Of a stretch of DNA of 36,907 nt, positions 3,906-33,276 are shown one piece after another. Under the pieces are notes generated by a model. That model had not been told where the DNA came from. It did no database searches and saw only the letters and a list, made by a program, of their open reading frames with translations. The stretch is from IMG/VR virus record IMGVR_UViG_3300023174_000373, positions 1 to 36,907 of that record, one strand, 5' to 3'. The translations under genes and the position numbers were made by a program. Origin of the DNA: a virus. Position 1 is the stretch's first letter, and every line of letters starts with the position of its first letter.

Positions 3906-6586
3906 TTAGATGTCCAACTTTCTCCGTCTAGTGTAAACGTATTAAATTCTGAATTAATGACATCTCCGCCAGATATTACATACATGTCATTATTTGAAAT
4001 AATTTTATGATCGCGCCTCTGAAAAGCAATTTCTTTAATGCCCACAAAATAAGCTTTATTATTTTGAAGTTTTGCAACTGCTTCTCTATAAGAGTGACGG
4101 GACGGTAAGAAAAAATACATATGGGGAATTGTTTTTTCTTGAATTAAATGATTTCTATTATGAGTAGAAACGTCACCGGTATTTGCTACAGTAATTAATT
4201 TATCCTCAATTGGGTAATTATTATAATTTGCATTAGACAAAGTAATTCCTGCAATTATTGAATCAAAGGTAGACCTATTAACCGGATGATCCATGAAAGG
4301 ATCAAGCGCAGTTTTTACTTTTGAATAAGTTGTCAAATCAAGAGAATCAACACCATCTGCATTTTTTAATAGCAAATTTTTAACCATTTGATCTAAATTA
4401 GCAGCGGACTCGTCAACAGTTTTAATATCATCTGCTTTCATATTATTTTGAATAATGTCATTTTTATAATAATTAAAAGCAAGCTGTAATAAATCAAATG
4501 AAACGTTTACTTTGCTAGCCGTAAAAGGATCATAGGTTTCATTTTTATTAAAAGCGTAAATTGATAAAAAGTAATCAAAAACCCATTGAGGATATTTTTT
4601 ATATAAAACTGTCTTTTGAAAATCTCCAGTTACATAAGGTTGAGCTTGAAGCGAAGTAAATTCAATTTTAAAGTACCTAGCAAATACTGAAGTAGGAAAC
4701 GCATAGTTTTGACGCTTAGTGGCTTTAAATTGCTTAGGAACCCTAGTCCAGAGCATAGAATCAAAGTCTGTAGATGATGAACCATTGGGTTGCTCATTGC
4801 CATTGATGTAATAAACATTAAAATTCACGTTTGGTGTAACAGGGTCAACAAACAAAGCCTCCACAACATCTTTTTTACCAAGGTCAAAATATAAACTTTC
4901 TACTCCGTATTTAGACGGATTTGCTTTAGACATCCACCAAGTGTCTGTGTTTAAATCAATTACATTTTCAACGGGTTGTTTATATATTGATGAACGATAT
5001 GAATTTCCAAAAATATCCGTTCCGTCATCTGCAACGTCACCCATCAACCTAAAACGAACGGCAACTGCATTTTGATTTTTTCTAATTCTTTTTTCTTTTA
5101 TTACTGATTGACTCCTGTTTGCAGTTCCAAGCCAGTTTGCATCTGTTGAATTGCCGTCAAAAAATGTTGGTATAGTTGAACTTACGGACATGATAAAACC
5201 AGTGTATTGAACCGTATAAGGAGTTAACCTGTTATTAGTCAATGCTTCCCAAGAGACATAAAATGTTGCCCAAGCCGCATTTGCGGGAGCGGTAAACGTC
5301 CCAGTTAAATTTACCCAATCAGTTGTTATAGAAATTGGAATTGCATTTTGAACCGAACCGGCAAACGTTCCAGAAGAATCTCTAAAGTAAGCATTGATTC
5401 TAACGTTGCCCGCTGCTTCCCCAGCTTTAAACCAAGCTGAAACAGAAATTTTTTCTCCAGCGGATATGGAAAGATAACCGTCTTCTTTCATTCCCGTGCG
5501 TGTGCCAGAGCCAGTATCCCCGCCTGTGGCGTTTGTAGTGATCCCTCCGTAATCTGTCGGAGTTACCGTAACTTTATACGAAGTTGTTAGTCCTGTATTT
5601 GCAGGGCCGTCAAAAACATTTGAAATTTTAGTGTAGCTCGCACTGGTACCGGCATATACACTCCATTTGTTTCCAGTAACACCCCTAGGGTCCGAAATTG
5701 TATTAGTTCGATAAGGGGACGCAATAGTAGGATCAGTAACAAAACAATCGTTTTGCTCAAATGAAGATTGCTCGGAATAATAAAATCCCGTTATGCCAGT
5801 CAATCCATGTACAACAATTCTGAATTTTTGATTGACATATTTAGGATCAATTGTAAACGATGCAAAGTTAATTTGAATCCATTTTGGACCAGAAGTTTGA
5901 TTTGTTGCAGTATGAGTTCCTTTAAAAATTTGCTTCCATTCATACGAAGCATTATAAGTTTCTATGCTGTATGTAATTTGATAATTAGCGCTGGTATTAG
6001 CGTTTAAATGAATGCCAGTAATTTTTGGGTATCTATTGTTACGCGCAAAATTTTGAGGTAAAAGAAATTCCTGAGCGAATGTTTTTAAAATAGTTGTTCC
6101 ATCTAAATCTAACAAGTAATTAGTTTGATTAAAAGAAGTTGAATCTGTTTTATTTTGATTAATAATAAAACCGCTTAAATCTATTTCAGTTTTAATTGCA
6201 GGGGTAGCAACGATTGGATTATCTTTACTTCCGTCAACAAAAAACTCAACGCTGTTCATTAATTGAATTCCAGATGTATCAAAAGTGGTTGTGTAATCAC
6301 TACTTGTTGCTGTTACGGTATTAGATCCAAATTGCGGCGTTATGACGCTCGCATTTTTAACTATGAAAGTGTACGAGTCTACAATTGTGTCAATAAGAAA
6401 TGAACCGTTGTATCCGCTTGTTGCTCCACTAATGGCAACTGTCATACCTTGAACAAATTTATGCGCAGCGGATGTGGTAAACGTGTAATAGCTTACAGGA
6501 TTTGTGGTGTCAGTTGCGTCTACAATTTTATAACTAGCAGTAGTAATTGTGCTAGTACTTGCTGCTACTGTTTTAGAAGTTGCCAT
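3902..6586 (-). CDS. minor tail protein with jelly-roll and discoidin-like domains
   Basis: This 894-residue product has a visible domain order. The N-terminal region (about 26-76) is a YNG module (AAHKFVQGMTVAISG...GYNGSFLIDTIV). A carbohydrate-binding, CenC-like jelly roll lies at about 295-490, where KWSVYAGTSASYTKI and ISVSAWFKAGEAAGNV precede TTDWVNLTGTFTAPANAAWA. It is followed by the phrase FFDGNSTDANWLGTANRSQS, frequent in actinophage minor tail proteins. A discoidin (F5/8C)-like region follows at about 535-655 (DTWWMSKANPSKYG, LYFDLGKKDVVEALFV, ARYFKIEF). The start shares one base with the stop of the upstream gene (TAATG at 6584-6588). These features point to a baseplate-attached adhesin. 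No depolymerase active site is apparent. Confidence 0.6.
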   Translation of the reverse strand: MATSKTVAASTSTITTASYKIVDATDTTNPVSYYTFTTSAAHKFVQGMTVAISGATSGYNGSFLIDTIVDSYTFIVKNASVITPQFGSNTVTATSSDYTTTFDTSGIQLMNSVEFFVDGSKDNPIVATPAIKTEIDLSGFIINQNKTDSTSFNQTNYLLDLDGTTILKTFAQEFLLPQNFARNNRYPKITGIHLNANTSANYQITYSIETYNASYEWKQIFKGTHTATNQTSGPKWIQINFASFTIDPKYVNQKFRIVVHGLTGITGFYYSEQSSFEQNDCFVTDPTIASPYRTNTISDPRGVTGNKWSVYAGTSASYTKISNVFDGPANTGLTTSYKVTVTPTDYGGITTNATGGDTGSGTRTGMKEDGYLSISAGEKISVSAWFKAGEAAGNVRINAYFRDSSGTFAGSVQNAIPISITTDWVNLTGTFTAPANAAWATFYVSWEALTNNRLTPYTVQYTGFIMSVSSTIPTFFDGNSTDANWLGTANRSQSVIKEKRIRKNQNAVAVRFRLMGDVADDGTDIFGNSYRSSIYKQPVENVIDLNTDTWWMSKANPSKYGVESLYFDLGKKDVVEALFVDPVTPNVNFNVYYINGNEQPNGSSSTDFDSMLWTRVPKQFKATKRQNYAFPTSVFARYFKIEFTSLQAQPYVTGDFQKTVLYKKYPQWVFDYFLSIYAFNKNETYDPFTASKVNVSFDLLQLAFNYYKNDIIQNNMKADDIKTVDESAANLDQMVKNLLLKNADGVDSLDLTTYSKVKTALDPFMDHPVNRSTFDSIIAGITLSNANYNNYPIEDKLITVANTGDVSTHNRNHLIQEKTIPHMYFFLPSRHSYREAVAKLQNNKAYFVGIKEIAFQRRDHKIISNNDMYVISGGDVINSEFNTFTLDGESWTSK

Positions 6587-8604
6587 TAAACCGTCCTACC
6601 AATCCTTAAATTTTTTACACAAATTGGCCAAACGTCACTATCGTTGTTATTATTAGTTAACCAATTTTTTACAAAATTACCATTTGAAGAATCAAACCTT
6701 CTATCAAATTTTATTCTTAAATATCTTGTATAAATAATATTTTGATTTGAGTCTTTAAAATTATAAGTGACGTACTCCCAAGGAGATAAATCGTCAGCGT
6801 AATAACTAAACTCTGTATCAAACTCATAAGTCTCTGTTGTCCCCGGAAGTTGTTCCTTTGACACTTGAACAAAATTTCTATACCCTTCATAATCATAGGT
6901 GTCATACCAGATGCTCACGGAGGCAGGGGATTTTAAAAATTCAAAACTTAAAAAGTTTACAGCCCTAGTTTTACCAAAATCAACTTCAAGGTATTCTGAT
7001 CCATTGTTCTTTGAAACAGAAGCCCAAAAAAGATCATTGGTTTGTTTTCTAGCTACGCCCGGTAAATTTAAATAAGATGCTGGGTAAATTCCATCAATTA
7101 ACGGGGTGTCGCTATTTAAATCGTAGCTGGTGGCAGTTCGCGGTTTGAAATGGTCAGCAACAGCTAAATCTGGAGTAAAATTTGTTTGATTATATTTTGC
7201 ATCATTAAACTGACTTAAATATGTAATTTTTCTTGTTAGGTTAGGATTAAACGATCCCGTGTTATAATTTAATTGTTTTTGAACAATAGATAAATCAGAG
7301 TCGTCTTGCGAATATGCATAAATTTTATTAATTTCATGAAAATTTTGATAAGATTCTTTAAAATCTTTTTTAAGAATTGGTGCCTCAACCTCTTCATTGG
7401 GTTTAATCCAATCAAGTGTTTTCTTGGTATTTTCAGGCCAAGGCACTTGACTATTTCCAGTTACATGTCTAACAACAGTAGTGTAATTACTGGATGAAAT
7501 TGGCGGAGTAGACTCTGGACTTGGAGCAATTTGATTCCAATCGCTTTGACCGGATACAAATACAGGGTAAGCATTTATTGGTCGCAACTTGTCAATTGCA
7601 ACTTCTAAATGTTTTTTAGATTCTGGAGATACAAAAGTAAATTCGTTGTTTGTAGAAATAACTCCGGAGTTTGATTGCACCGTTGCAGAGCAAATAGAAT
7701 TTGTTGATGATGACAAACCCGCCGCGTCTACTGATAAAATGTTATCATTGTTGTGTCCAATTGGGCCAACAAATTGAATTTTAATACCGGTTCTAGGAGT
7801 ACCAGAAACAATAATATTATTTTGAATAGAACTGTTTTGCGATAGCGCATTTTTAATATCTAAAGCAGTCGCTGAATAAGATATGGGTTGAGTGTTAACA
7901 AATTTGTATAAGATGGTAAACGTTCCAAAACTAGGAATTGGATCAAACGTAATTGTTTGAATAATAGAACCGCTTGTTTCTGGATTAGGAACAATTGCAA
8001 ACTTTTCGGTGCTATAAATTCCATCTTTATTAGGTTCAATTGCATTTTTAAAACCAACAATTTGATCGCTGTTTTGATCAAAAACGTATTCATAACCCTC
8101 TACAATGTTTACGTCTCTACCCAGTGCCGATTTAGCGGCGTATCGCATACCCTCAGGAGTACCACCAAGACGAGCGGCATGCATAAAATCTAAAACGCGA
8201 TTTTTATACGCTTGGTCTTTAGATTTAATTTTTGACCAAATATCATTATTTAATAAACCTGTTACATCTTCTGAAAAAGTTTCTTCGGCAATTCTGCCAA
8301 ATCCCATTGGGTTAGCATAAAAACTTTCTAATTGAGCCGACTCTAATCCCATCTCTTCAAATTTTAAACGAGCTTCAAAATAACCCCTTTTTAGAGACGC
8401 TACGCCAGCAGGACCAATTAGCGCATAAATTAATTTATATAAAACAGCGTCGGGAGACGTATTAAAAATGTTGTCTGGAAATTTATCTAAATAACTAGAT
8501 GGATGCTTAGCGCCATGAATTGCCTCAACAAAATAACGTTGATCAATTGTTTGAATATTTGTAGTTCCAGTAAATCCAGTAAATGACATTAGGCTATATT
8601 CCAA
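6586..8604 (-). CDS. baseplate wedge/minor tail protein (tail protein I position)
   Basis: The product is 672 residues. The N-terminal 200 residues are helical and contain GFGRIAEETFSEDVTGLLNND and MHAARLGGTPEGMRYAAKSAL, typical of a protein that follows the J protein in contractile-tail baseplates (the P2 gpI/XkdT neighbourhood). Residues about 220-315 hold a beta module of the form FGTFTILYKF...ISYSATALDIKNAL...ILSVDAAGL, a pattern seen in many phage tail and bacterial surface proteins. The C-terminal 140 residues look discoidin-like (YLEVDFGKTRAVNFLSFEF, TRYLRIKFDRRF). The gene overlaps the J gene by 16 bases. Its role is inferred from gene order: it would link the baseplate wedge to the fibres or adhesins that follow. 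Confidence 0.55.
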   Translation of the reverse strand: MEYSLMSFTGFTGTTNIQTIDQRYFVEAIHGAKHPSSYLDKFPDNIFNTSPDAVLYKLIYALIGPAGVASLKRGYFEARLKFEEMGLESAQLESFYANPMGFGRIAEETFSEDVTGLLNNDIWSKIKSKDQAYKNRVLDFMHAARLGGTPEGMRYAAKSALGRDVNIVEGYEYVFDQNSDQIVGFKNAIEPNKDGIYSTEKFAIVPNPETSGSIIQTITFDPIPSFGTFTILYKFVNTQPISYSATALDIKNALSQNSSIQNNIIVSGTPRTGIKIQFVGPIGHNNDNILSVDAAGLSSSTNSICSATVQSNSGVISTNNEFTFVSPESKKHLEVAIDKLRPINAYPVFVSGQSDWNQIAPSPESTPPISSSNYTTVVRHVTGNSQVPWPENTKKTLDWIKPNEEVEAPILKKDFKESYQNFHEINKIYAYSQDDSDLSIVQKQLNYNTGSFNPNLTRKITYLSQFNDAKYNQTNFTPDLAVADHFKPRTATSYDLNSDTPLIDGIYPASYLNLPGVARKQTNDLFWASVSKNNGSEYLEVDFGKTRAVNFLSFEFLKSPASVSIWYDTYDYEGYRNFVQVSKEQLPGTTETYEFDTEFSYYADDLSPWEYVTYNFKDSNQNIIYTRYLRIKFDRRFDSSNGNFVKNWLTNNNNDSDVWPICVKNLRIGRTV

Positions 8605-11600
8605 GTAGATTGAGATTTTGTTCTAATAGTCATAACGGATGAAAGGTCAAGCGAACCGTTAACAGATGTTCCATCCGGTAAAGTTGCTAATTCGTCATCG
8701 CCAATAACTAAGTCAGAATTGTAAGATCCCGATGCTCCTTCAAGGAATATATTTGACAGATTAAAATCTGCATTAAGGCCAGCATTATTAAACGTAATAA
8801 CAAATGGGTTTAACGCATCAGGAACTAAAGTTGTCGTAGACGTTTTACTAGAAAGTGCAACCGTAACTAATCCACTTGTTGCAGACGGATCATATGATAT
8901 ATACGCATTATTAATTTGATTTTGAATATAATTACAAGCTAAAGATGCCGTTGCAAAATTTTCTAAAACATCAACATCAATAATTGCAGAGCACAAAGAT
9001 TTAAAATTAATTTGAATTGTGCCAGTAGTCGGATTTCCAGTAAAATAAAAATTGTATTTAGTAGCATTGCCAGAACTATTTCCTCCAACGTACACTTTGT
9101 CTAATACTGCGCCTACAACAGGATTACCATATACATTGGTTTCTGTTAATCTAGTTCTAGGGTTACCGTCTGCATCAGTAGTTCCTAATAAGTTTGCAGT
9201 TGCAGACCCGATTACTTCGTAGGCGTTAAAATAATCTGTTGTACTTAAAGTAGATGAGACGCCACCATTTGATGCAGGTGCACTCAAAGTTACTGTAGTA
9301 GCAGTTTTTGAAACAATTGTTGGACTATTAGTAGAAGGAAATCCTCCTAAGCTTGCCGGGGTTCCCGCAAATGTACCAGTGTTTCCAACACTACTAACTG
9401 GAGATGACACCGTTCCAGTTACTTGAAATGAATCTGTGCTGACAGAACTTATTGTAAATTTGTTATTATAAGCAGAGCTGACCCCTGTAAAAATTAACAC
9501 CGCCCCGGACGCAACAGATGAAAGGCTTTTATTTAAAGTAATAAGGTTGCCGTCAACGTTTGTTACTACCGTTTGATTAGAATAAATTGTGACAGACGCA
9601 CCAGCGCCAATGGTTGCTGTAGGCGATGCGCTTAAAGTTATTGTAGTTCTTGCTGAATTTACAGAAGTTATGTATGTCCCACTAGATAAACTACTAGTAT
9701 GAGTAATTACCGATCCAACTCCAAAATTTGCTGGAAGCTCGGAGGACAAAACCATAGTTTTACTAGTTGTTGTTGTTGAATTACCACTTGAGGTTGTGGC
9801 GCTAAGAGAGTCTGAAACCCCCGCACCTGACACAATTTGATCAATTGCAATACCGGTTGCACTGACAACGGCAATAACGTTGTCATCATGGGTAAATGTT
9901 ATTGTGTCGTTAGTTGTAATATTACTAGTTGCGTTTGCGCTTAATGTCACGGTTTTTGGAGAAGAGGTGTTATCAATATTTGTTACATACGTGTCAGACG
10001 GAATTTTTGTTCCACTACTGACGAGTGCTCCGACCGACACACTGCTTGTAACGGCGCTTGAAAAAGAAAGAACATTATTTCCTGAAGACGTTGTGGCTGA
10101 CGGAGTTTTAGTAACCGTAGGAGAGGTTTCACTGGTGGTCGTTTGACGAGAATCCTGTACGCCGCTAATAACAACCGTTGATTCACTAGCTAAACCATGA
10201 CCTGTTGCATTTACAGTATAAGTGGTGCCAGATGCTGTAATGCCGCTACTATTAATGGATCCACCTTTAATACGTGAAACCGTTGATCCAACCGTCCAAT
10301 CGTCTGGAATGCCCGCGTTCAATGTCAATGTTGTTGTCCCGTCAGGCATAGAGGCAGTGCCACTGTTTACCGTACTTGGAGAATCAGAAGTAAATGATGG
10401 AGCACTTGTAGTTGAAAATGCCGTTGACCCTGTAACAACAAATTTATTTTTAGTTCCCGTTGGAATGGATTTAATTGCAAACAAACCATTATAAGCGTCA
10501 ATACTAGAACCATTAATTGTAACGGTGTCACCAACCGACATTTTGTGGTTAGTGGTAGTAGTATAAGTGTATTCTTTTGGTTTAAGAGCACTTTCAACTT
10601 TTGCCGATATAACAGGATAAGAAACACTCTTAATTGTTGAAATTAAATCTTTTGACCATTTGACATTATCAACGCCGGGTGTATTATGAATAATTTGTAA
10701 AAGATCTGATAATTGAATTGTGCTGCCAAAATAACTACCCTCAAAATAAGTTAACAAAGATTGACGAATAGACGATTTGACCGTTGAGAGGCTAACGCCC
10801 GAATTAGACATGATTGTAATATCTGGTTTAAAGTACCTAACTTTGGCTTTATGAGCCAAAACATCGGTGGTAACTTGCTTGACGCCTTCTAATGCGCCCT
10901 GCAAAGTGTAAATATTGTTATCAAATTTATACTGGTTAACTGTTACTGAAGTATCTGCATCGCTGTATTTAAGATAAACACTGGATCCAATATCGTGCGA
11001 GTTAATTAAAGTAGAATCGCTAGCTCTTGTAAGTCCAGTTAAAGCAATAGAGTTAAGGGAAGAATATGTTGTTGCAGTATAAGTACTTACAGGGCTGCCA
11101 GATGAACTAGTAGCAGAATATTGAATGTATTCATTATCTATTAGTACCGTTCCCGATGAAGGCCATTCGCCCGTATTTGGAACTACAATTTGAGCCGTTG
11201 ATCCCGTTCCATCAATTGAATAACCAAACGTCGCGGTTGTACTTGTGACTGCGAGAGTATTTGTGGTTGCTTTATTTAATGTTATGGTATTTCCATTGAC
11301 AAGTGTAACAATGGTTCCTGATTGAAAACACGTTCCAGTAACGCTCATTCCGGCTTTAACCGCAGTAGCCCCATCATTAGAAAGTTGCGTAGCCAAAGTT
11401 ATAGTCGTTGGCGTACTAGCCGCAATACTTACATCATAAACAACATTTGTTAAAGCTGATTCAAGCTTCTTTTGTAAAATGTACTGACCGGTATATGGAC
11501 CCGAAGAAATATCTCCGCTTTTTGCTCCACGAATTGTTGATGACCATTCAATGCCATTACGGGCGCGAACGGTGCCACCGATTGGCGTAACATCCTGAAC

Positions 11601-12995
11601 GGCCCAATAATGAATGTTTTTATAAAATGTAGTGTCACTCAAACTAATTGAATCTGGAAGGTCGGCGGCTGGTTGATTAAATAACGGTGTAAAAATGTTA
11701 CCGTCTACTGGACAATGACCGGGTTCATTCATTCTTGCAAAATTTTTAATATAAAAAGCGTTTGACGAATCGGTAGTAAATTTGATTGTAGGAATATTAA
11801 CTCCGGGCCTTGGGATAACCGCAGTTGCAAGTTGATAGTCGTTATTATTTACATAAACATCGACGCAGTTAAGTACTCCTTTTTCATAATCGTTTCTAGA
11901 AGCTTTAGAAAGATAAGAGTATTCGCTTAAAAGAATATCGCCGGGAGCTATAGTCGTTGCGGGTTTATTGGTAAGATTGGTAGCCGTCCAAACGTTATTA
12001 ATTGTTACCGATGGTCTATTACTGGCAGCCGCACTTGAAGGGTCAATATCAACATTATTTAAATACTCTCTGTATGCATCGCCTCTATTTTTTGATGTAC
12101 CAGTAAAATTCATTACAAAATCCAAGTCTTGCGTGTAATGAGTTATTGGCACAGTCTGATCATTGGCTAAATGATAAGCGACATTATCATAAACGTATTT
12201 AGCATTTGGATTAATAGAAAGGGCTGTTGTGTATTGATTTTGAGCGCCGTTGCCTGTATAGCCTTGATATTCAGTTGCATCATCAACCGCTGGCACTTGA
12301 ATGTATTCTTTGTACCTTGTAATAGGCCCAACAACAGTTGCCTTTTTAGCATAAGTAGAAATAGCCGTGGCAAGATATTGACTTTCGGTGCCAGATAGAT
12401 TTCTAAATGGTCCGGTTGCTTTAAATCGTGCTTTTATTTCTAAGTCACCTTCTGGATCTACGCCTCCTGAGGTTGCATAATCATTGTTAATAGATGTAAT
12501 GCCCACAATTGGTTTATTGTATGGTTCTGTAATTTTATTTGCGTCTACATTACCAGCCACTCCATTAACTTGACATGCAATTGGAACAATGATAGAAGTT
12601 GCGTTTGCGCTTAGGGTGGCACTACTAGTAGAATAAAATACGACATTTGCGTTGTCGGTATTTGTATTTCGCGCAATAAATTGAGTACCGGCAGGAATGC
12701 GAATATCTGCAACCGCAGATGTATCCCTTCCCAATTTTACATAACCAGTTGATTGAGTACCCTGCTGGCGACCAAATCCAAACAGTGCCAAAAACGCATC
12801 AAGATCGCTACCAATTTTTGCGTCAACATCAAGAACACCTTGAAGAACATTTAAATCAATTTGAGCTTCAGCCAAGGCTTGAGCCACAGTATCAATAATC
12901 ATTCGCTCAGGGGTTCCAACCTCTGCTGAAATGGCAGGGTCGGTTGCCCGAAGCTGGTCAATCATGTTTTGTGCAATATCTTTTTGAGTAGCCAT
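8589..12995 (-). CDS. giant baseplate J-like wedge protein
   Basis: This 1468-residue protein is several times longer than ordinary baseplate J proteins. Residues 1-230 carry the classic signature: an N-terminal helical start, then GVAGNVDANKI at about 145 and ATSGGVDPEGDLEIKARF near 175-192. The J C-terminal part is visible at about 690-790 (VRYFKPDITIMSNSGVSLSTVKSSIRQSLLTYF...TPGVDNVKW). Inserted at about 523-678 are an ITLS-type module and an FPSSG module. After residue 800 come YNG modules and further ITLS modules rich in Ser and Thr. The protein should form the baseplate ring that transmits the contraction trigger. The start shares one base with the stop of the gp25-like gene. Residues beyond 800 may be surface-exposed decorations. 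Confidence 0.85.
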   Translation of the reverse strand: MATQKDIAQNMIDQLRATDPAISAEVGTPERMIIDTVAQALAEAQIDLNVLQGVLDVDAKIGSDLDAFLALFGFGRQQGTQSTGYVKLGRDTSAVADIRIPAGTQFIARNTNTDNANVVFYSTSSATLSANATSIIVPIACQVNGVAGNVDANKITEPYNKPIVGITSINNDYATSGGVDPEGDLEIKARFKATGPFRNLSGTESQYLATAISTYAKKATVVGPITRYKEYIQVPAVDDATEYQGYTGNGAQNQYTTALSINPNAKYVYDNVAYHLANDQTVPITHYTQDLDFVMNFTGTSKNRGDAYREYLNNVDIDPSSAAASNRPSVTINNVWTATNLTNKPATTIAPGDILLSEYSYLSKASRNDYEKGVLNCVDVYVNNNDYQLATAVIPRPGVNIPTIKFTTDSSNAFYIKNFARMNEPGHCPVDGNIFTPLFNQPAADLPDSISLSDTTFYKNIHYWAVQDVTPIGGTVRARNGIEWSSTIRGAKSGDISSGPYTGQYILQKKLESALTNVVYDVSIAASTPTTITLATQLSNDGATAVKAGMSVTGTCFQSGTIVTLVNGNTITLNKATTNTLAVTSTTATFGYSIDGTGSTAQIVVPNTGEWPSSGTVLIDNEYIQYSATSSSGSPVSTYTATTYSSLNSIALTGLTRASDSTLINSHDIGSSVYLKYSDADTSVTVNQYKFDNNIYTLQGALEGVKQVTTDVLAHKAKVRYFKPDITIMSNSGVSLSTVKSSIRQSLLTYFEGSYFGSTIQLSDLLQIIHNTPGVDNVKWSKDLISTIKSVSYPVISAKVESALKPKEYTYTTTTNHKMSVGDTVTINGSSIDAYNGLFAIKSIPTGTKNKFVVTGSTAFSTTSAPSFTSDSPSTVNSGTASMPDGTTTLTLNAGIPDDWTVGSTVSRIKGGSINSSGITASGTTYTVNATGHGLASESTVVISGVQDSRQTTTSETSPTVTKTPSATTSSGNNVLSFSSAVTSSVSVGALVSSGTKIPSDTYVTNIDNTSSPKTVTLSANATSNITTNDTITFTHDDNVIAVVSATGIAIDQIVSGAGVSDSLSATTSSGNSTTTTSKTMVLSSELPANFGVGSVITHTSSLSSGTYITSVNSARTTITLSASPTATIGAGASVTIYSNQTVVTNVDGNLITLNKSLSSVASGAVLIFTGVSSAYNNKFTISSVSTDSFQVTGTVSSPVSSVGNTGTFAGTPASLGGFPSTNSPTIVSKTATTVTLSAPASNGGVSSTLSTTDYFNAYEVIGSATANLLGTTDADGNPRTRLTETNVYGNPVVGAVLDKVYVGGNSSGNATKYNFYFTGNPTTGTIQINFKSLCSAIIDVDVLENFATASLACNYIQNQINNAYISYDPSATSGLVTVALSSKTSTTTLVPDALNPFVITFNNAGLNADFNLSNIFLEGASGSYNSDLVIGDDELATLPDGTSVNGSLDLSSVMTIRTKSQSTWNIA

Positions 12996-15346: not shown

Positions 15347-16876
15347 TTAAGCAGGTTTAGCTTTGTGAGTTTGAGTAGTACTTGCTTTTGGAACTGCAAC
15401 GGTTTCATTAACAAATGCTCTAATCATTCCAGAGTGAATCCAATCTTTATCAGATCCTTGATCAGCATCTCGCAACGCAGATGGAGCGGACAATTGAGCA
15501 ACAGTAGTAAATCCGTCTTGATAAGATCCGGAGTGAACAACTTCTTCTACATAGCATTGAAGTCCATGTTCTGGAAATGCAACTATGCCTCCGGGAAAAA
15601 GCTCAGGCATAAATGTAAATTCAAACGATGTAACAAATTGTTTAGCCCAAAGTAAACAAAATCTTTGAAATGCTAGGAAAGTTTCATAAATGGGAGACCT
15701 GACTGCTGCTACTGGCTCCATGTACTTTCTGGCTCCGTATTTTTTAAGAAAATTAATTGCTCCTTCTTTGTCTAATTCATCAGGAGATTTATTGCCGGGA
15801 TCTTTAGATTTGCCATCTGATGGTTTACCATTTAAAAACCCAGTTTGAAATGCATTAAAGATGTTAATAACACCAGTGGTGTTCATTTCGTCTACATAAT
15901 CAATAGTTCCAAACCCATATCCTGCACCTTCGCCACCTTGAGTATCACCAACAACAAAAACATGAGTTGCTAAATTATCGTCTGATAAATCAATTTTACC
16001 GCTGATAATTTCAATATCTGAAATGTTCCAGTATGGTTGACGATGAAATCCACCAAAATAATCAGGGTAAAACGCATAAAATTTGCCATCGGGCATTGAC
16101 ATAAAATTTCTTAATGAAGCTCCGCAAATTTGTTCAATAAAGGGAAATAGTGGTTCATCATTAAGCATACTTCTTTGACCGGTTAAGGCGTTAGATTCAA
16201 CTGAATTTACGGCACTTGGAAAAGAAAGAATTGTAGAAAATGCCGCACCTTTAGCAATTTGATCAGTTGTGTAATTATTACTTGCATTACTAGCACCCGA
16301 TCCATCATTGTTACCACTACTAGGAGAGGTGCTCCCCGATTCGGTTGCCGACCCGCCATAAGTATAATGTACGTATGGGGCGCTATCAAAATTGCCATCT
16401 CCGCCCGGTTCTCCCGCCGGTCTTTGCATCCAGAGGTGAACCCCGGAACCATGAAGCATGTTTCCACTAACGCCAATTTTTTGACCAGCTTCAACAGTTT
16501 GACCATCTGTAACGCTCGCTTGACCAGAACTGCCATAACCAAATTGATCGCCTTTTTTAATACTTCCCCTGTCTTCAAGAGCTTTTAAAGTAATAAGATT
16601 TCCGTCTCCGCCGCTCCAAGTTCCTACATATGTAACTCGGGATTTAACCATTGCATAAAGTTCTGTTCCCGGATCCATGGGATAATCGTTTCCGCCGTGG
16701 TTGTGAGCAGCGGTGGTACCATTTGCTGGGCGGTAAGCACCAAATTCCCCTCCACTTGAAACTGACGGTTCAGAAACCTTAAATGGTTTATGAACGTGTT
16801 TGCGATCCTCGGCATCTTTAATTTGCTGAGCGGATTGCGCGTTTGAATTTGCGTTTGGGTTCTTTGGTCTAGTCAT
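15347..16876 (-). CDS. hub second-half protein with degenerate M23 domain
   Basis: The 509-residue product begins with an M23 (lysostaphin-type) peptidase-like domain at about 35-175. The first zinc motif HxGxD is present as H60-G-G-N-D64, but the terminal HxH motif reads H147-L-W149, so one zinc ligand is lost and activity is doubtful. Residues about 190-480 resemble the second half of a gpD/gp27-like hub protein (FIEQICGASLRNFMSMPDGKF, ISDIEIISGKIDLSDDNL, THVFVVGD, then PGGIVAFPEHGLQCYVEEVV). The three genes immediately upstream carry only the first half of such a protein. The likely role is a baseplate hub component. A purine-rich AGAAAGAG precedes the start. Confidence 0.65.
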   Translation of the reverse strand: MTRPKNPNANSNAQSAQQIKDAEDRKHVHKPFKVSEPSVSSGGEFGAYRPANGTTAAHNHGGNDYPMDPGTELYAMVKSRVTYVGTWSGGDGNLITLKALEDRGSIKKGDQFGYGSSGQASVTDGQTVEAGQKIGVSGNMLHGSGVHLWMQRPAGEPGGDGNFDSAPYVHYTYGGSATESGSTSPSSGNNDGSGASNASNNYTTDQIAKGAAFSTILSFPSAVNSVESNALTGQRSMLNDEPLFPFIEQICGASLRNFMSMPDGKFYAFYPDYFGGFHRQPYWNISDIEIISGKIDLSDDNLATHVFVVGDTQGGEGAGYGFGTIDYVDEMNTTGVINIFNAFQTGFLNGKPSDGKSKDPGNKSPDELDKEGAINFLKKYGARKYMEPVAAVRSPIYETFLAFQRFCLLWAKQFVTSFEFTFMPELFPGGIVAFPEHGLQCYVEEVVHSGSYQDGFTTVAQLSAPSALRDADQGSDKDWIHSGMIRAFVNETVAVPKASTTQTHKAKPA

Positions 16877-16914: not shown

Positions 16915-18036
16915 TTACAAATACTGATTATATGAACCGTTGTGATATGTTGACCAAGGTCCCCAATTAGACCCATCTGAAGATAGAGTAATAGCCGCTT
17001 TACAATTTTTGTTAGCATCTTTCATATCATCATAGCTCCCATTAGGAAAATAATTAGGGTGAGCTTTATTATTAATTTGCCAAAGTCCAACATCATAAGA
17101 CCCATCAGTATTTGGACCACCAACTTCTTTAGAGGTGCCACTGGATTCGGCTAACGCAATTGCTGCGGCCATATTTGCATTTCCTGCATTACCCCCATTT
17201 GCCTTCCAAAGATCTATTAATTGACGTTTGCTATAATTGCCGCCCCTAGATGGAGGCGCACTAGTGCCACTTGTAGGCGTAGAGGTCGGAGTAGGAGCCA
17301 TTCCAGCGTTTCCGCCACCAAGTTGACCAACGCCAATAATTTCATCTAAAAACGTTCTAAAAGTTTCAAACGAGGCCTTGGCATCCCCAGTTAAATCTTT
17401 ATACAGCGCACTTACAGCAGCACTTATTTGCTGACTGGGTAATTCCTGAATGTATATATCGTCATGACTCCAACCTCCGGCATCCATTAATACATCATAT
17501 AATAATTTGCCTAATGAAGAATCATTTAAATTTAATTTAGATGCCTCGGCATTAGCATTATTAGCAGTTCCTCCTGTTGCAGGGGTCCAACCTCTTTCCA
17601 TCAAATAATGATTAACAAAAGGCAGCCCCGGATCCCAATATGTATACATAAGTTTTTTCAAAGTACAAGATGCTGTCAAATTAGCAGTTCCGGGAAACAA
17701 TTGTATGTAAGGTGTTTTATCGCAGTATCCAGTAAAAACTTGAACTGGATGACCTTTTAATCTAGTCAAATTGATAATAATTGGATCCATAGGGTGAAAC
17801 ATTGGACTATAAGATATTGAACCATCTGATTCTTGAACTGGGTGCTGAGTAAACAAAAACCTTGAAACGCCATCAGGGTTTTCAACTTTAGGATTTCTAA
17901 ATGAAATAGAAGCCGTACTTGTAGAATTGACCTTTCGATTAATAGAAAAATTGACTATGTAGGGACTTAAATCAAAAATACCAGAGTCGGTTTTAACCCA
18001 AGCGTTTACTGATGGTGAATAAACAAGTCGTTTCAT
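16915..18036 (-). CDS. hub paralogue 3 with lysozyme/transglycosylase-like domain
   Basis: This 373-residue product has two parts. Residues 1 to about 238 are nearly superimposable on the same part of its two upstream neighbours (MKRLVYSP, AWVKTD, FDLSPYI, FHPMDPI, LTRLKGHPVQVFTGYCD, YTYWDPGL). They look like the first half of a phage late-control/gpD-type hub. After a Thr/Ser/Gly linker, residues about 272-373 form a GEWL/SLT-like domain: the catalytic Glu is probably E297 in ALAESSG, followed by YDVGLWQIN and WGPWSTYHNGSY. Such domains cleave the MurNAc-GlcNAc bond. The protein should sit at the tail tip and help the tube penetrate peptidoglycan. It follows the preceding gene by one base. 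Confidence 0.8.
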   Translation of the reverse strand: MKRLVYSPSVNAWVKTDSGIFDLSPYIVNFSINRKVNSTSTASISFRNPKVENPDGVSRFLFTQHPVQESDGSISYSPMFHPMDPIIINLTRLKGHPVQVFTGYCDKTPYIQLFPGTANLTASCTLKKLMYTYWDPGLPFVNHYLMERGWTPATGGTANNANAEASKLNLNDSSLGKLLYDVLMDAGGWSHDDIYIQELPSQQISAAVSALYKDLTGDAKASFETFRTFLDEIIGVGQLGGGNAGMAPTPTSTPTSGTSAPPSRGGNYSKRQLIDLWKANGGNAGNANMAAAIALAESSGTSKEVGGPNTDGSYDVGLWQINNKAHPNYFPNGSYDDMKDANKNCKAAITLSSDGSNWGPWSTYHNGSYNQYL

Positions 18037-18037
18037 T

Positions 18038-19282
18038 TTACAATTTTCCGTCCCTGACTATGCGCTCAGCTTTAGTTTTTCCACTACTTCCTTGACCGCA
18101 AAAATATAACTTCCAAGATCCTTGATCCGTTGGAAAATTAACGCTATGATCACTAGCCTGACTATAGCCAAATACGCCAACGGCGGCTGGTGTATTAACG
18201 TCTACAATTCGTCCCGAATTTGCATTGGGACCCCAATCTGATTGAGGTAATGCTGCTGCACGACCGCTGGGGGATCTCACTACATACCAATTCAAATTAT
18301 TACCCGCGCCAGCAGTTCTTCTTGTTGCGATTCCGGGGATGTCTGGATCTAAACCAGATGCCGGGGGTTGACTACCGTAACTATTGTCGTCGGGATCAGT
18401 ATAATTATATTTATGACTTGACCCATAAGTTGATCCACGACCGGAATCCGTCCAAGGTATTGCATTTTCAGACATATTGTTAGTTACCACGTTTTCAGTA
18501 GCGGGTGCCAAATTACTCGTACCAGACGAATTTGTTTGACTGACATTTGTGGCTCCTCCACCCGACCCAAGATTTCCATAACCGATGATTTGATCCAAAA
18601 AATCAGAGAAAGTTTCAAATGAAGCCTTGGCATCCTTTGTTAAATCTTGATAAATGGCTTTTACTGAAGCTTGAATTTGTTTATTAGGCAATTCTTGAAT
18701 AAATATGTCAGCATCATCCCAGCCTCCAACGTCTATCAATATGCGATAGAGCAAATAACCTATAGACGAATCATTTAAATCATTGCTGCGATTCTTTTCT
18801 GCGCCAAGGTTAATTTTTCCTCCGTCGCCACCCCAACCCAATTTACTTAAATATTCAATAACAAAAGTTAGTCCGGGATCCCAATAAGTGTACAATAATC
18901 GTTTTAAAGTACAAGACGCTGTTAAGCTAGCAGTTCCGGGGAACAATTGAATATATGGGGTTTTATCACAATAACCTGTAAACACTTGGACGGGATGACC
19001 TTTAAGGCGTGTCAGGGTAATTACAATAGGATCCATCGGGTGAAACATGGGGCGATATGATGTCGAACCGTCCGATTCCATTGTTTGATATTGAGTGAAA
19101 AGAAACCTTGATTTACCATCGCTACATTCAACTTTAGGGTTTCTAAAAGTTAATTCTGCACTACTAACAGCATTCACCTTTCTAGTAACACCATAAGATG
19201 TTATATAAGGACTTAAATCAAAAATACCAGTGTCTGTTTTAACCCAAGCGTTAATTTGCGGCGAGTAAACCAATCTTTTCAT
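18038..19282 (-). CDS. hub paralogue 2 with double-psi beta-barrel domain
   Basis: The product is 414 residues. The N-terminal ~240 residues are paralogous to those of the flanking genes (MKRLVYSPQINAWVKTD, FHPMDPI, LKGHPVQVFTGYCDKTPYIQ). A linker then leads to a C-terminal domain at about 300-414 with the pattern of an RlpA/3D-type double-psi beta barrel. Key elements are SDWGPNANSGRIVDVNTPAAV, with the DxGP aspartate at D349 and the RIVD strand, followed by GVFGYS. Barrels of this type act as lytic transglycosylases (RlpA, MltA) or non-catalytic wall binders. The start overlaps the preceding stop by four bases (19279-19282). The barrel assignment is by motif only and is less certain than the M23 and lysozyme-like domains of its paralogues. 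Confidence 0.7.
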   Translation of the reverse strand: MKRLVYSPQINAWVKTDTGIFDLSPYITSYGVTRKVNAVSSAELTFRNPKVECSDGKSRFLFTQYQTMESDGSTSYRPMFHPMDPIVITLTRLKGHPVQVFTGYCDKTPYIQLFPGTASLTASCTLKRLLYTYWDPGLTFVIEYLSKLGWGGDGGKINLGAEKNRSNDLNDSSIGYLLYRILIDVGGWDDADIFIQELPNKQIQASVKAIYQDLTKDAKASFETFSDFLDQIIGYGNLGSGGGATNVSQTNSSGTSNLAPATENVVTNNMSENAIPWTDSGRGSTYGSSHKYNYTDPDDNSYGSQPPASGLDPDIPGIATRRTAGAGNNLNWYVVRSPSGRAAALPQSDWGPNANSGRIVDVNTPAAVGVFGYSQASDHSVNFPTDQGSWKLYFCGQGSSGKTKAERIVRDGKL

Positions 19283-20493
19283 GACGGCGCTCCCGGAATA
19301 TTTCCAATGAGTTTAACTGGATTTCCAGTTGTGCAGGCAATATGCAAATGAGGAACTCCGTTTCCTGATCCTGACAACCCCATAGGGTCGCCCTTTTTAA
19401 CTTTTTGACCATCTGTGACAATTAAACGGGTATTATGTTGATAAAACCACTCATTGTCTTTAGTTTTTAAATGACATGTGAATCCATCTGTGCGAGCGGC
19501 TCCTCCGCTATATGAACCACCGACCCTTGTAATTGTTCCATCGTCAACAGCAAAAACAGAGGTTCCATTGGGAACTAAAATATCAACCGCATTACAAGAT
19601 TGCCAATTGTTAAATGTGCCTCCCCAAGTGTGAGTGCCCTGTCCGGGACCTCCGGCAAAAGTTCCCTTTGCGCCAAGTGGATAACCAACTGCTGCCGCTT
19701 GACCGCTTGGATTACCACCAGTGGTTCCGCTTGAATCAGTTGCAGATGTCGTTGTAGTTCCGCCACCGCCACCAAGGTTGCCATAGCCAATTATTTGATC
19801 TAAGAAATCAGAAAAAGTTTTAAATGAAGCTTTGGCGTCACCGGTTAAATCTTTGTATAGTGCCGTAACTGCGGCGCTTATTTGTTTATCAGGAAGCTCT
19901 TGAATAAAGATATCGTTATGATCCCAGCCGCCAATGTCCATTAATATGCGATATAATAAATAACTTATGGATGAGTCATTTAAAGTAGCTTCGCCGTTGC
20001 CTTCAACTCCAGCATTTACTGTCAACCCTTGCGCTGTTGGCATCCAACCTAACTTGGAAAGATAAGTAGTAACAAAAGCCAGTCCCGGATCCCAATAAGT
20101 GTACATTAACCTTTTTAAAGTGCAGGACGCTGTGAGGCGGGCAGTTCCCGGAAACAATTGAACGTAGGGCGAAGAATCGCAATAACCTGTAAATACTTGA
20201 ACTGGATGACCCTTGAGGCGCGTCAGGGTAATAATAATTGGGTCCATGGGATGAAACATGGGACGATAAGACATTGAGCCATTTGATTCTTTTGTTTCAA
20301 ATTCTGTAAAAAGATAACGAGACGACCCATCAGAATTTGTAACTTTTGGGTTTCTAAAAGTTAATTCTGCTGAACTAACTGAATTAACTTTACGATTTAC
20401 ACTGTATCCTGTTATATATGGGCTTAAATCAAAAACCCCCGTGTCTGTCTTCACCCAAGCATTAATTTGCGGGGAATAAACTAATCTTTTCAT
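19279..20493 (-). CDS. hub paralogue 1 with M23 endopeptidase domain
   Basis: The product is 404 residues. The N-terminal ~240 residues are the shared hub half (MKRLVYSPQINAWVKTDTG, FRNPKV, GHPVQVFTGYCDSSPYVQ). The C-terminal domain (about 272-400) is an M23 metallopeptidase. It has VDILVPNGTSVFAVDDGTI at the metal-site strand, the YQHN catalytic-histidine segment, KVKKGDPMGLSGSG, and a complete terminal H382-L-H384 motif. The first ligand motif, normally HxGxD, reads C300-N-A-V-D304, so Cys or Asn may replace the usual histidine. M23 enzymes cut the peptide cross-bridges of peptidoglycan. The gene starts five bases after the preceding stop, with no strong Shine-Dalgarno sequence. It is a probable tail-tip enzyme. 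Confidence 0.8.
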   Translation of the reverse strand: MKRLVYSPQINAWVKTDTGVFDLSPYITGYSVNRKVNSVSSAELTFRNPKVTNSDGSSRYLFTEFETKESNGSMSYRPMFHPMDPIIITLTRLKGHPVQVFTGYCDSSPYVQLFPGTARLTASCTLKRLMYTYWDPGLAFVTTYLSKLGWMPTAQGLTVNAGVEGNGEATLNDSSISYLLYRILMDIGGWDHNDIFIQELPDKQISAAVTALYKDLTGDAKASFKTFSDFLDQIIGYGNLGGGGGTTTTSATDSSGTTGGNPSGQAAAVGYPLGAKGTFAGGPGQGTHTWGGTFNNWQSCNAVDILVPNGTSVFAVDDGTITRVGGSYSGGAARTDGFTCHLKTKDNEWFYQHNTRLIVTDGQKVKKGDPMGLSGSGNGVPHLHIACTTGNPVKLIGNIPGAPS

Positions 20494-22057: not shown

Positions 22058-24235
22058 TTATCCTAACAAGTCCGCTAAAATACTTCCGCCGGGAATTTGA
22101 TCCAAAGCAGCTTGAACGATAGGTTGTCCACCGCCATTTGCACTACTCTTGTTATTATCAGAGGCGGTTTTAAGAATTTTCTTTGCGCTATCAGTAAGAT
22201 CAAACATAATTTTATCCTGTTTGCTATTTTCATCAGCGTCACTCTTTTTCTTTTGATGCTCTGCCATAATTTCCTTGTATTTTTTAGCTTGAGCATTGCG
22301 CCCCTCTTCGCTTTCACCAGAATCGCTCTCGCCAATACCCAAAAACCCTCCGGTCTTACCGGCGTCTTCAATTTGTTCGATTTCGTCTTTACTAAATCCA
22401 GAATCTTTCTTTTCAAGGTCTTTTTTCATTTTACCCCAAGCTTCAGTGCCGCCGCCTTGAATGTATCCGCCCTTGTCATTATTACTTATGTTTCCTTCTT
22501 GATCAATTCCAAACCCTTGCGACACCCTGCTAGTAATTTCCATTTCTTTGGCGGATTTTAATCTTTTTTGAATTTCTGGAACGCTCATGCCGGTATAAAG
22601 GCTAGCCGTTGCTAATTGTTTTTGTTTACCAGTTGCAGTAATTTGTTCTTTGCCAGTGTAAGGATTAATTTCTTTTGTATCACTGCCGACAGGTGTCATT
22701 TGCATAATGTCTTGTAACGTTTTATTTTGATTTGCAATCTTCTGCGATGGTGACATAAGTCCTAGTTGCCAAGGGGCCAACCCAGTTGAAACCATCGCGT
22801 TAGCTTTTACCAATCCATTATTTTCAAATTTAGTAAAACTTTGAGGGGGCAATCCTGTTGCCGCCGTAAAATCACTAATAGTATTTGCTGCTGAAATAGC
22901 AGGGTTTGCAGCGCCGGTACTTGCCAAAGTTTGTGTATAAGCAAACACTGCCTGCTGCATTTGTGGAATGCTAACTGAAGCTTTATTTGAAACATCGGCA
23001 AGGTTAAGCATTGCCTCAGCAGCCTTTTTAATTTCGTCTCCGCCTCCGAACCGAACCGCTTGATCCAGCCATTGAGTCTCTCCTTCACTAATGAGATTTG
23101 GATCGCGTTTATATAGTTTTTCTTGAGCGGCAACAAGTTTATTAAACTGTTGACTTGAATCAGTAAAAGTTCCCATGGCGCTACTGGGTTTATAACCCAT
23201 GCCAACAACGCCTCCTATAATATTACTTGTTTGAGTGGTATTCAAACCAGCACCCCTAGCATCAAAGGCAGCCCTAAGTTGCAAGGCCGCTCCGCGACGA
23301 GTGGCTTCATTAGTAAGAACGCTTTTAGTTCTTACACCAAAACCAAGAGGACCGTCAATATCTCCGGTTTCAGGATTACCTCCAGCTAAAGTACCATAAT
23401 CGGTTCTATCAGCCCTTCTTTTAAAAAATGGTTTAGAAATACGATTAGCCATGTCCGCTGCGGGTAAATATTTGTTAGAAGCCGTGTGAAGCATCTCTCC
23501 GGCTACGATAGCATTGGCACTAGCAACCGGCGCTTTGTCAGCTAACTTTGAACCAGCACCGGATAAAATATCTCCAGCTAAATTACCATAATCTTGAAGA
23601 GAATAATTTTCATCGCCAAATCTAGGCATAAATCGACCGCTAGACATTGGAGTTTGCCAAAAATCTGCACCCGGTCGAGAACTAGATCTAGAAAAACTGG
23701 CATTGGCTGACGGACGACCATACCAAGCTTTTTCAAGTCTAGTAGGCGGCGTTGTATTTCCATATTGCTTTGCAGCAGCCGCAGCCTGTTCTTGCATGTG
23801 TTGACGATAAGCTTTTATATCACCCTCGCCCTCAGCATCTATAAACCCGGCCTCGGCAGCGGCTTCCTTAGATGTATTACGACTAAATCCCCCAATCCTA
23901 TGAAACTCTTGATTAGTCATAGATGGGTCCGGAGATCGCCCTCCTCGCCACTGTCCTTGATTAGCCACTAATGGCTCGGGTCCACTTGTAGAAGTACTAG
24001 CTTGCGAACCAGACCTACTTGCATGTGGCGAAACACCACTTGCGCCCATTTGCGAAGTTTCTTTAATAGCTTGAGCAATGGCTTTAGGCAGTTTTTTTTC
24101 AAGCGCTTCAAGACTTTTAGCAATTCTGTCCATCTGCGTCCCAATGTCCTTCATGCCCGTAGTTTGAGCTTCAGTGATCTGACGAAGGACGCTATTATCA
24201 ACGCCCGCTACGTTTACATTGGTTTGATCTGCCAT
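22058..24235 (-). CDS. tape-measure protein (short)
   Basis: The 725-residue product occupies the tape-measure slot after the tail assembly chaperone. Residues about 14-65 form a predicted helical or coiled segment (MKDIGTQMDRIAKSLEALEK). A low-complexity Ser/Pro/Arg-rich linker and a central Ala-rich helical region with many Gln and Asn residues follow. The C-terminal 160 residues are strongly charged (Lys, Asp, Glu). There is no clear membrane segment or peptidase domain. If it sets tail length at roughly 0.15 nm per residue, a tail near 110 nm is expected. A Shine-Dalgarno-like AAGAGG lies eight to ten bases before the start. An alternative is a different internal tail protein, but no other candidate is present. 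Confidence 0.65.
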   Translation of the reverse strand: MADQTNVNVAGVDNSVLRQITEAQTTGMKDIGTQMDRIAKSLEALEKKLPKAIAQAIKETSQMGASGVSPHASRSGSQASTSTSGPEPLVANQGQWRGGRSPDPSMTNQEFHRIGGFSRNTSKEAAAEAGFIDAEGEGDIKAYRQHMQEQAAAAAKQYGNTTPPTRLEKAWYGRPSANASFSRSSSRPGADFWQTPMSSGRFMPRFGDENYSLQDYGNLAGDILSGAGSKLADKAPVASANAIVAGEMLHTASNKYLPAADMANRISKPFFKRRADRTDYGTLAGGNPETGDIDGPLGFGVRTKSVLTNEATRRGAALQLRAAFDARGAGLNTTQTSNIIGGVVGMGYKPSSAMGTFTDSSQQFNKLVAAQEKLYKRDPNLISEGETQWLDQAVRFGGGDEIKKAAEAMLNLADVSNKASVSIPQMQQAVFAYTQTLASTGAANPAISAANTISDFTAATGLPPQSFTKFENNGLVKANAMVSTGLAPWQLGLMSPSQKIANQNKTLQDIMQMTPVGSDTKEINPYTGKEQITATGKQKQLATASLYTGMSVPEIQKRLKSAKEMEITSRVSQGFGIDQEGNISNNDKGGYIQGGGTEAWGKMKKDLEKKDSGFSKDEIEQIEDAGKTGGFLGIGESDSGESEEGRNAQAKKYKEIMAEHQKKKSDADENSKQDKIMFDLTDSAKKILKTASDNNKSSANGGGQPIVQAALDQIPGGSILADLLG

Positions 24236-32072: not shown

Positions 32073-32355
32073 AATTTATTCTCTCTTTCTATAACAATAT
32101 AAGACTTGACTTGATACTACAAACGAGACTTGCCACTGATTAAGACCGGGATTCGATATAGTAATTAGGGAAGCCAAACTAAGTCTTGACAATTTGACTA
32201 TATGATATAGTCTTTGTACAAGTCAACGTTTGGCTTTTTATATAAATCGACAGAAGGAGTTAATTCCACTGGTCTCATTCAGCCCGTTAAGTTGTTAAGT
32301 AAGAGGGCTTGCGAAGTCAATGTAGGACAAATGAATGTGTTCCAAGGAAGATATT
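32073..32355. promoter_or_regulatory. divergent intergenic region with nested inverted repeats
   Basis: This 283-base region separates the minus-strand genes from the plus-strand lysin and should hold promoters for both directions. At 32171-32179 and 32228-32236 a nine-base inverted repeat (AAGCCAAAC/GTTTGGCTT) encloses TTGAC/GTCAA arms (32186-32190, 32222-32226) and a central perfect seven-base palindrome arm pair (32196-32202, 32206-32212). The outer arm is followed by a T-run. Several TTGAC-like hexamers occur and could serve as -35 elements (for example TTGACA at 32186-32191), but none pairs with a convincing -10. A Shine-Dalgarno-like AGAAGGAG at 32251-32259 has no start codon in reach. 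Confidence 0.5.
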
Positions 32356-33276
32356 ATGTTATATGCTAAAACAGCGGTTGTAGTAGCCGCCGTAATCGGT
32401 AGTTTTGCATCTACCCCAGAACCAGCGAAAGCTGTTAGTAAACAGGCCCACATTACTACAATTCCGGGTCCTGTAGTCACAAAAACAAAGAAGTACCGCG
32501 TAAGGGTGCCGATTCAGCACTTTTCCGTTAGAGCAACCGCTTATTCAACTGAAGGCTGTGATGCTTCAGGTGGCGGTAATATTACATCAATGGGAACAAC
32601 GCCTCGTTTTGGCGAAGTTGCCAATAATTTCCTTTCATTAGGAACAAGGATCTATTTCCCTAAGGCCATTTATGGTAAGCATTATTTTAGGGTTGAAGAT
32701 CATATTGGTTGGGGTTCTCAGCTTGACATTTGGGTTCATTGTGGATATCAAATGAATAATTGGAATAATCCCACTGTTCATTTTTATACATATAAATGGA
32801 AGGTGAAAACAAAGAAGATCCGAGTAAGGGCGTCAATCAGCCTTATTAAAGATCCTCTCAAACCCGTTGTAGTGGGTTCTAAGGCTCTTATATATAAAAA
32901 TGTAGCCTACGCCCCATCTAAGGCTCCAATTAATGTTAAACGAGTTGTATGGGCCGGAAACAAGATCAATGCGCTTCCATATGTATGGGGAGGCGGGCAT
33001 GGATCTTTTTTAGATTCTGGCTACGACTGTTCAGGATCAGTATCATATGCCCTTCATGGAGCAGATCTGATCAATACTCCACTGGATTCAGGATCACTAA
33101 TGTCTTGGGGTCAGTCAGGGCCGGGTAAATGGATTACGGTTTACGCTAATTCAGGCCACACATACATGCATGTTGCTGGTATTAGGTTTGATACATCAGG
33201 AGCCAATCCTTCAAGATGGCAATCTGATTTAAGGCCTAGCTTAGAATATGCTCTTAGGCATCCAAGTAATTTATAA
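32356..33276 (+). CDS. secreted two-domain lysin: 3D barrel plus NlpC/P60-like
   Basis: The start is placed at ATG 32356 because AAGGAAG lies five bases upstream. An upstream in-frame ATG at 32335 has no such site. The 306-residue product has a signal peptide (about 1-26, hydrophobic AVVVAAVIGSFAS and an AKA cleavage site). A 3D-type double-psi barrel (about 58-150) follows, with ATAYSTEGCD, LSLGTRIYF and QLDIWV. The C-terminal domain from about 200 is NlpC/P60-like, with Cys225 in YDCSGSVSYAL and His268 in GHTYMHVAG. NlpC/P60 enzymes cleave peptide stems of peptidoglycan. The architecture and closing segment (PGKWITVYANSGH, then HPSNL) look like actinobacterial enzymes. It is a probable endolysin or secreted wall enzyme. 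Confidence 0.8.
   Translation: MLYAKTAVVVAAVIGSFASTPEPAKAVSKQAHITTIPGPVVTKTKKYRVRVPIQHFSVRATAYSTEGCDASGGGNITSMGTTPRFGEVANNFLSLGTRIYFPKAIYGKHYFRVEDHIGWGSQLDIWVHCGYQMNNWNNPTVHFYTYKWKVKTKKIRVRASISLIKDPLKPVVVGSKALIYKNVAYAPSKAPINVKRVVWAGNKINALPYVWGGGHGSFLDSGYDCSGSVSYALHGADLINTPLDSGSLMSWGQSGPGKWITVYANSGHTYMHVAGIRFDTSGANPSRWQSDLRPSLEYALRHPSNL

Follow-up and report, generated by a model that had tools for sequence, protein, structure and literature searches.

A predicted contractile-tail hub divided between two chains, one of them encoded in three versions, in a metagenomic phage

Hubs of the gp27 type are taken to be symmetric homotrimers of one chain. What kind of hub, then, is encoded by a phage in which three consecutive genes begin with the same hub-like half and end in different domains? 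The question is raised by IMGVR_UViG_3300023174_000373, a 36.9-kb virus record (the window, meaning here the whole of this stretch of DNA) that carries head and contractile-tail genes on the minus strand. A first-pass annotation made from the sequence had described the three genes as a triplicated hub half fused to three different wall-degrading domains, and had suggested that their products might assemble into a heterotrimer. We refer to these genes as N-genes and to the gene that follows them as the C-half gene (Table 1).

Four hub genes in the slot of one

The minus-strand structural module of the window includes genes for a major head protein, a sheath protein, and a tail assembly chaperone, together with a tape-measure-like gene (22058-24235) assigned by its position. 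Behind the tape measure and two small genes come the four hub genes, followed by genes for a collagen-like fiber, a gp25-like baseplate protein, and a baseplate J protein (gpJ). Synteny shows that phages E3, Finch, and Phabba have their one hub gene at this point, and a position between the tape measure and gp25/gpJ is also that of gp27/gp44-type hubs. Other genes of the module have features of their own. The baseplate J protein (8589-12995, minus strand) has 1468 residues, with the Baseplate_J/phrog_6 match confined to the first ~210, and thus carries a very long extension compared with the 613-residue gp122 of E3. An 894-residue tail protein (3902-6586, minus strand) weakly matches the carbohydrate-binding module CBM_4_9 (E 0.0015). 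The sole long plus-strand gene within the module (32335-33276) has a weak NlpC/P60 match (E 0.0011) and may be an endolysin gene or a late insertion.

Table 1. Positions of the hub genes and their domains in the window
Feature	Position	Strand	Size or match
N-gene copy 1	19279-20493	-	404 aa
Hub N-half of copy 1, residues 1-240	19774..20493	-	phrog_2810, 6.7e-37, profile 47-254
M23 metallopeptidase domain of copy 1, residues 301-389	19327..19593	-	Pfam PF01551, 3.5e-11
N-gene copy 2	18038-19282	-	414 aa
Hub N-half of copy 2, residues 1-240	18563..19282	-	phrog_2810, 4.6e-37
C-terminal tail of copy 2 (double-psi barrel possible but unconfirmed)	18041..18442	-	related to tail of third N-gene of L018
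N-gene copy 3	16915-18036	-	373 aa
Hub N-half of copy 3, residues 1-240	17317..18036	-	phrog_2810, 8e-45
Lysozyme/transglycosylase-like SLT_3 domain of copy 3, residues 281-363	16948..17196	-	Pfam PF18896, 4.6e-20
C-half gene, whole	15347-16876	-	509 aa; adjoins N-gene copy 3
M23-like domain, N terminus of C-half gene	16427..16702	-	Pfam PF01551, 9.9e-10
Hub C-half, residues 205-509	15347..16264	-	phrog_2810, 1e-56, profile 633-923

The shared N-terminal half reported for the three genes is borne out: over ~240 residues the copies are 69 to 79% identical (copy 1 versus copy 2, 79%; copy 3 versus copy 1, 69 to 71%; copy 3 versus copy 2, 69%), and all three N-halves match positions 47 to 345 of the virion protein profile phrog_2810. 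Past ~240 residues, pairwise alignment found no useful similarity among them. The DNA of the N-half regions is just 67 to 74% identical and synonymous differences are near saturation, so the copies are real paralogues; an assembly duplicate is ruled out by the same DNA identity. The N-genes are tightly packed (the end of copy 1 and the start of copy 2 have 4 nt in common, and there is also a 1-nt gap), an arrangement consistent with cotranslation. As with VgrG proteins, three paralogues with different C-terminal cargo are thus found in one genome.

Two of the three tail domains named in the first-pass annotation were recovered by Pfam, namely, the M23 domain of copy 1 and the SLT/lysozyme-like domain of copy 3, the latter also matching SLT (PF01464, 1.8e-6). 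Aligned by eye, the M23 domain of copy 1 apparently has Cys in place of the first zinc-ligand His; the Asp and the YQH and HLH motifs are present. The double-psi barrel proposed for copy 2 stays unconfirmed. That tail has no match in Pfam, NCBIfam, or PDB sequences, and profile comparison did not link it to the group of tails in which one weakly matches DPBB_1. Inspection by eye does reveal a DPBB-like motif, ..D.GP....GRI.D, and the L018_N3 tail shares 54% identity with this one. The structure model of the copy 2 protein was poor (pLDDT 53.9 overall, <50 in the tail) and was excluded from the fold search.

The fourth piece of the locus, the C-half gene, and with it the division of the hub into two chains, is absent from the first-pass annotation. 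The hub C-half is present as a single copy in the window record and is 36 to 38% identical to E3 gp119, Finch 52, and the Bxz1-like hubs. In the alignment, the M23-like domain that precedes it has lost both catalytic His residues (GYGH has become GYGS, and the first His of HxH is gone) and keeps the zinc-ligand His/Asp and the last His; judged by these residues, it is probably inactive. By eye, L006 and two of the C-genes of L019 appear to have an intact corresponding domain, with these His residues retained, whereas the domain is unrecognizable in L008, L009, L010, L016, and L018. The window pairs a degenerate M23-like domain in the C-half gene with another M23 domain in N-gene copy 1.

A predicted hub fold that is a single chain in relatives

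The phrog_2810 family, which has 952 profile positions, holds both half-hub sequences of the window, and the N- and C-segments of the window proteins match it with E values of 7e-37 to 1e-56. In Bxz1-like mycobacteriophages (Ceeclamvirinae), Gordonia phages, and the Rhodococcus phages E3 (gp119) and Finch (52), the same two halves are the ends of one gene, which occupies the same place in the tail operon as the four genes of the window. The middle of these single-chain hubs, in the examples scanned, carries a lysozyme-like domain, one of the NlpC/P60 or M23 type, or both. Wall-cutting domains thus lie between the halves of one chain in these phages, whereas in the window the halves are separate genes and the N-chain comes in three versions.

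An AlphaFold2 model of one single-chain relative, L011 (926 aa; pLDDT 76.8), resembles known hubs, with Z scores of 20.9 for Agrobacterium phage Milano, 19.0 for Mu gp44, 18.9 for pyocin R2, 18.4 for VgrG1, and 15.2 for T4 gp27. The matches span residues ~8 to 887, across N-half and C-half, and the two-part, tube-like hub fold is found in the N- and C-terminal regions of the model. An insert at residues 251 to 388 has a transglycosylase fold and matches lytic transglycosylases (Z 11.7). Because the model aligns with hubs across both halves, one gp27-type monomer in the relatives is predicted to consist of the N-half, the C-half, and the wall-cutting enzymes inserted between them in mid-chain. 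By homology to L011, the hub fold of the window is cut into two chains, of which the N-chain alone is triplicated; the fold of the window halves is taken from sequence homology, the window model itself being poor. The gp27/gp44/VgrG hubs of T4, Mu, pyocin R2, and type VI secretion systems (T6SSs) are akin to the single-chain relative in fold (Z 15 to 21) and alike in their position below the tube. They keep the fold in one chain, whereas the window divides it between two genes, and the enzymes lie within the fold here, not on a separate gp5-like spike chain.

Copy number and tail exchange among split hubs

N- and C-genes were counted by profile searches of all loci and then of whole records. 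The first-pass annotation had proposed a search for the same gene trio in related metagenomic phages, and three N-genes with one C-gene were indeed found in seven, namely, the window, L006, L008, L009, L010, L016 (with its near copy L017), and L018. No further N or C copy occurs anywhere in these records, two of which are 127 and 132 kb long. The same count is found in a cultured phage, LE2-3, which grows on Eggerthella lenta DSM 2243 and has three N-genes (LE23_91, LE23_92, and LE23_104) and one C-gene (LE23_105), annotated merely as baseplate/tail proteins. LE2-3 is like the window in this count but distant in sequence, and its N-gene tails are NlpC/P60-like, Amidase_5, and phage tail lysozyme domains. 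Unlike in the window, its third N-gene lies ~5 kb from the other two, beyond a cassette of fiber/tail genes and next to the C-gene. Within that interval, LE2-3 genes 93, 96, and 97 are similar to one another (L068, 14233-16015).

Other counts exist. L019 has five consecutive hub genes (6156-12949), two of them N and three C, the C-genes carrying M23, M23, and NlpC/P60-like domains, a layout that mirrors that of the window. L020 has one N-gene and one C-gene, and L044 has one of each plus a fused gene, the complete fused hub gene coming directly after the split hub (6291-11808). The remaining loci searched encode single-chain hubs. More than three copies of either N or C were not found in any record, and reading frames are intact in all the split-hub records found and in LE2-3. 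Trees reject the grouping of all split forms in one clade (p-AU 0.007 for N and 5e-5 for C), with the caveat that LE2-3 has long branches. On these sequences, exactly three N-genes are present in at least two lineages, and a third layout has three C-genes. Searches found no relatives of the N-half in bacterial genomes and no viral contigs resembling the LE2-3 N-halves, and further viral scans gave no additional split-hub phages.

N-copies are kept one-to-one within the related pairs L008/L009 and L016/L018; across more distant phages, they are most similar to the other copies of their own genome. Some tail classes are common to separate phage groups at about the identity of the N-halves. The L009_N1 and L010_N2 proteins, for example, are 57% identical in the tail and 52% in the N-half, against 72 to 74% to their own paralogues. 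These patterns suggest either that N-halves within one phage homogenize each other or that tails move between phages. Tails do move, since the N-halves of L016 and L018 are 88 to 93% identical and their tails are unrelated or 40% alike. Exchange of the whole trio between L008 and L009 is unsupported, identity being similar throughout. The cargo of L010 includes an unusual example (3243-4865), in which the N-half is followed by GDSL-esterase-like and VanY-like domains, both below the Pfam cutoff.

The first N-gene of L008 (246 aa) is without any enzyme domain. Comparison with its orthologue gives a dN/dS of ~0.06, an approximate value with dS near saturation, and its branch is no longer than those of its sisters; these values point to purifying selection on this enzyme-less copy. 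Other comparisons of the copies are less informative. In phages with three N-genes, no two tails within one genome are homologous, but this does not exceed chance (P 0.15); within-genome diversity of cargo is therefore not counted as support, and nonredundant cargo was dropped as evidence of cooperation. Paralogue-specific sites number 32 and 49 in two phage pairs, with 16 positions in common, but rate variation alone could account for them.

Proposed arrangement of the N-chains in the hub

We propose that the four genes encode the tail hub of a contractile phage and that its three N positions are filled by the products of the three N-genes, mostly one each, a reading to which we give a probability of about one-half. 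The chain that is continuous in relatives would be broken in the window within the inserted region. An N-chain, with the opening portion of the fold and an enzyme at its C terminus, would pair with a C-chain, made of the degenerate M23-like domain and the closing portion of the fold, into one hub subunit, as homology suggests. The ring would then offer three positions to each kind of chain. Those for C would be occupied by three copies of one protein, and those for N would be shared among the three N-gene products, usually with each present once. One tail tip might thereby carry at least two different cell wall hydrolases and the copy 2 tail as the tube enters the envelope.

The copy number and the enzyme-less copy of L008 favor three hub positions filled by different N-chains, since neither bet-hedging nor neutral duplication accounts as well as a threefold hub for the ceiling of three and for the conservation of a copy that has no enzyme. 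Together with the gp27-type fold of the homologue, they lend considerable support to the heterotrimer first suggested for this locus, and the N-chains may form a sorted 1:1:1 heterotrimer. In its strictest form, which we put forward tentatively, the heterotrimer would be programmed, with one of each N-chain in fixed places around a homotrimeric set of C-chains. The result would be an asymmetric, multi-tool tip, a layout reached at least twice by N-triplication and once by C-triplication. Three different N-chains are not generally needed, because phages with one N and one C (L020), two N and three C (L019), and N, C, and a fused gene (L044) exist. Tube-like domains alternate around the ring in gp27-type hubs. 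If the N- and C-parts do so here, the N-chains may touch little, and there may be no evident basis for sorting one of each.

The strongest rival, which we regard as unlikely but serious, is that interchangeable N-chains enter hubs at random, homotrimers included, as a form of bet-hedging over hosts or wall types. It is serious because one C-chain has to serve as partner for all three N-chains, and it fits the 69 to 79% identity of the N-halves and the free exchange of tails between N-slots. It leaves unexplained why there are exactly three N-genes in two independent lineages and never four, and why an enzyme-less copy is conserved.

Distinctly less probable is that any given virion builds its hub from three copies of a single N-chain, with expression or the condition of the host deciding which. 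In favor of this, different VgrG homologues within a single Serratia T6SS form no heterotrimers (PMC4924876). Against it, the N-genes of the window are packed in tandem and seem to belong to a single transcription unit, and no invertase or other switch was recognized among the window proteins searched; moreover, an L008 virion built with copy 1 only would be without an N-chain enzyme, and its C-chain has a degenerate M23-like domain. About as improbable, or slightly more so, is that one N-chain is a hub part and the other two are wall hydrolases anchored elsewhere in the virion, or assembly factors. In LE2-3 one N-gene, the third, is set apart from its two sisters and adjoins the C-gene, which would suit such an arrangement, but all copies keep the N-half under similar constraint and none is without the hub part. 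Neutral or transient tandem duplication, for which the repeated origin of splitting and duplication (AU test against one split clade) might speak, is already contradicted by conservation (intact frames, near-saturated synonymous divergence with low dN/dS, and retained orthologues) and is very improbable, and a broken single-chain gene is ruled out by a layout conserved in many records.

The closest parallel to three hub chains of different cargo comes from outside phages. Vibrio cholerae has three hub paralogues, VgrG-1, VgrG-2, and VgrG-3. Two of them end in effector domains, and the one that has no such domain is comparable to copy 1 of L008. VgrG-2 interacts with VgrG-1 and VgrG-3, and a homo- or heterotrimer has been proposed (PMC3166118); later work explained the requirement for multiple VgrGs by the loading of effectors (PMC8668125). 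Given also the Serratia result cited above, VgrG mixing is a contested T6SS precedent. The V. cholerae VgrGs are whole chains from separate genes, whereas the window encodes a split phage hub. A search of the open literature, with most subscription papers outside its reach, found no split or heteromeric (heterotrimeric) phage hub.

If the three N positions are indeed filled by different chains, a contractile tail could bring several wall-cutting activities to bear at once, and cargo would be swapped by exchanging tails behind a fixed N-half, as in L016 and L018. Phages would then have a counterpart of the VgrG heterotrimer that is under debate for T6SSs.
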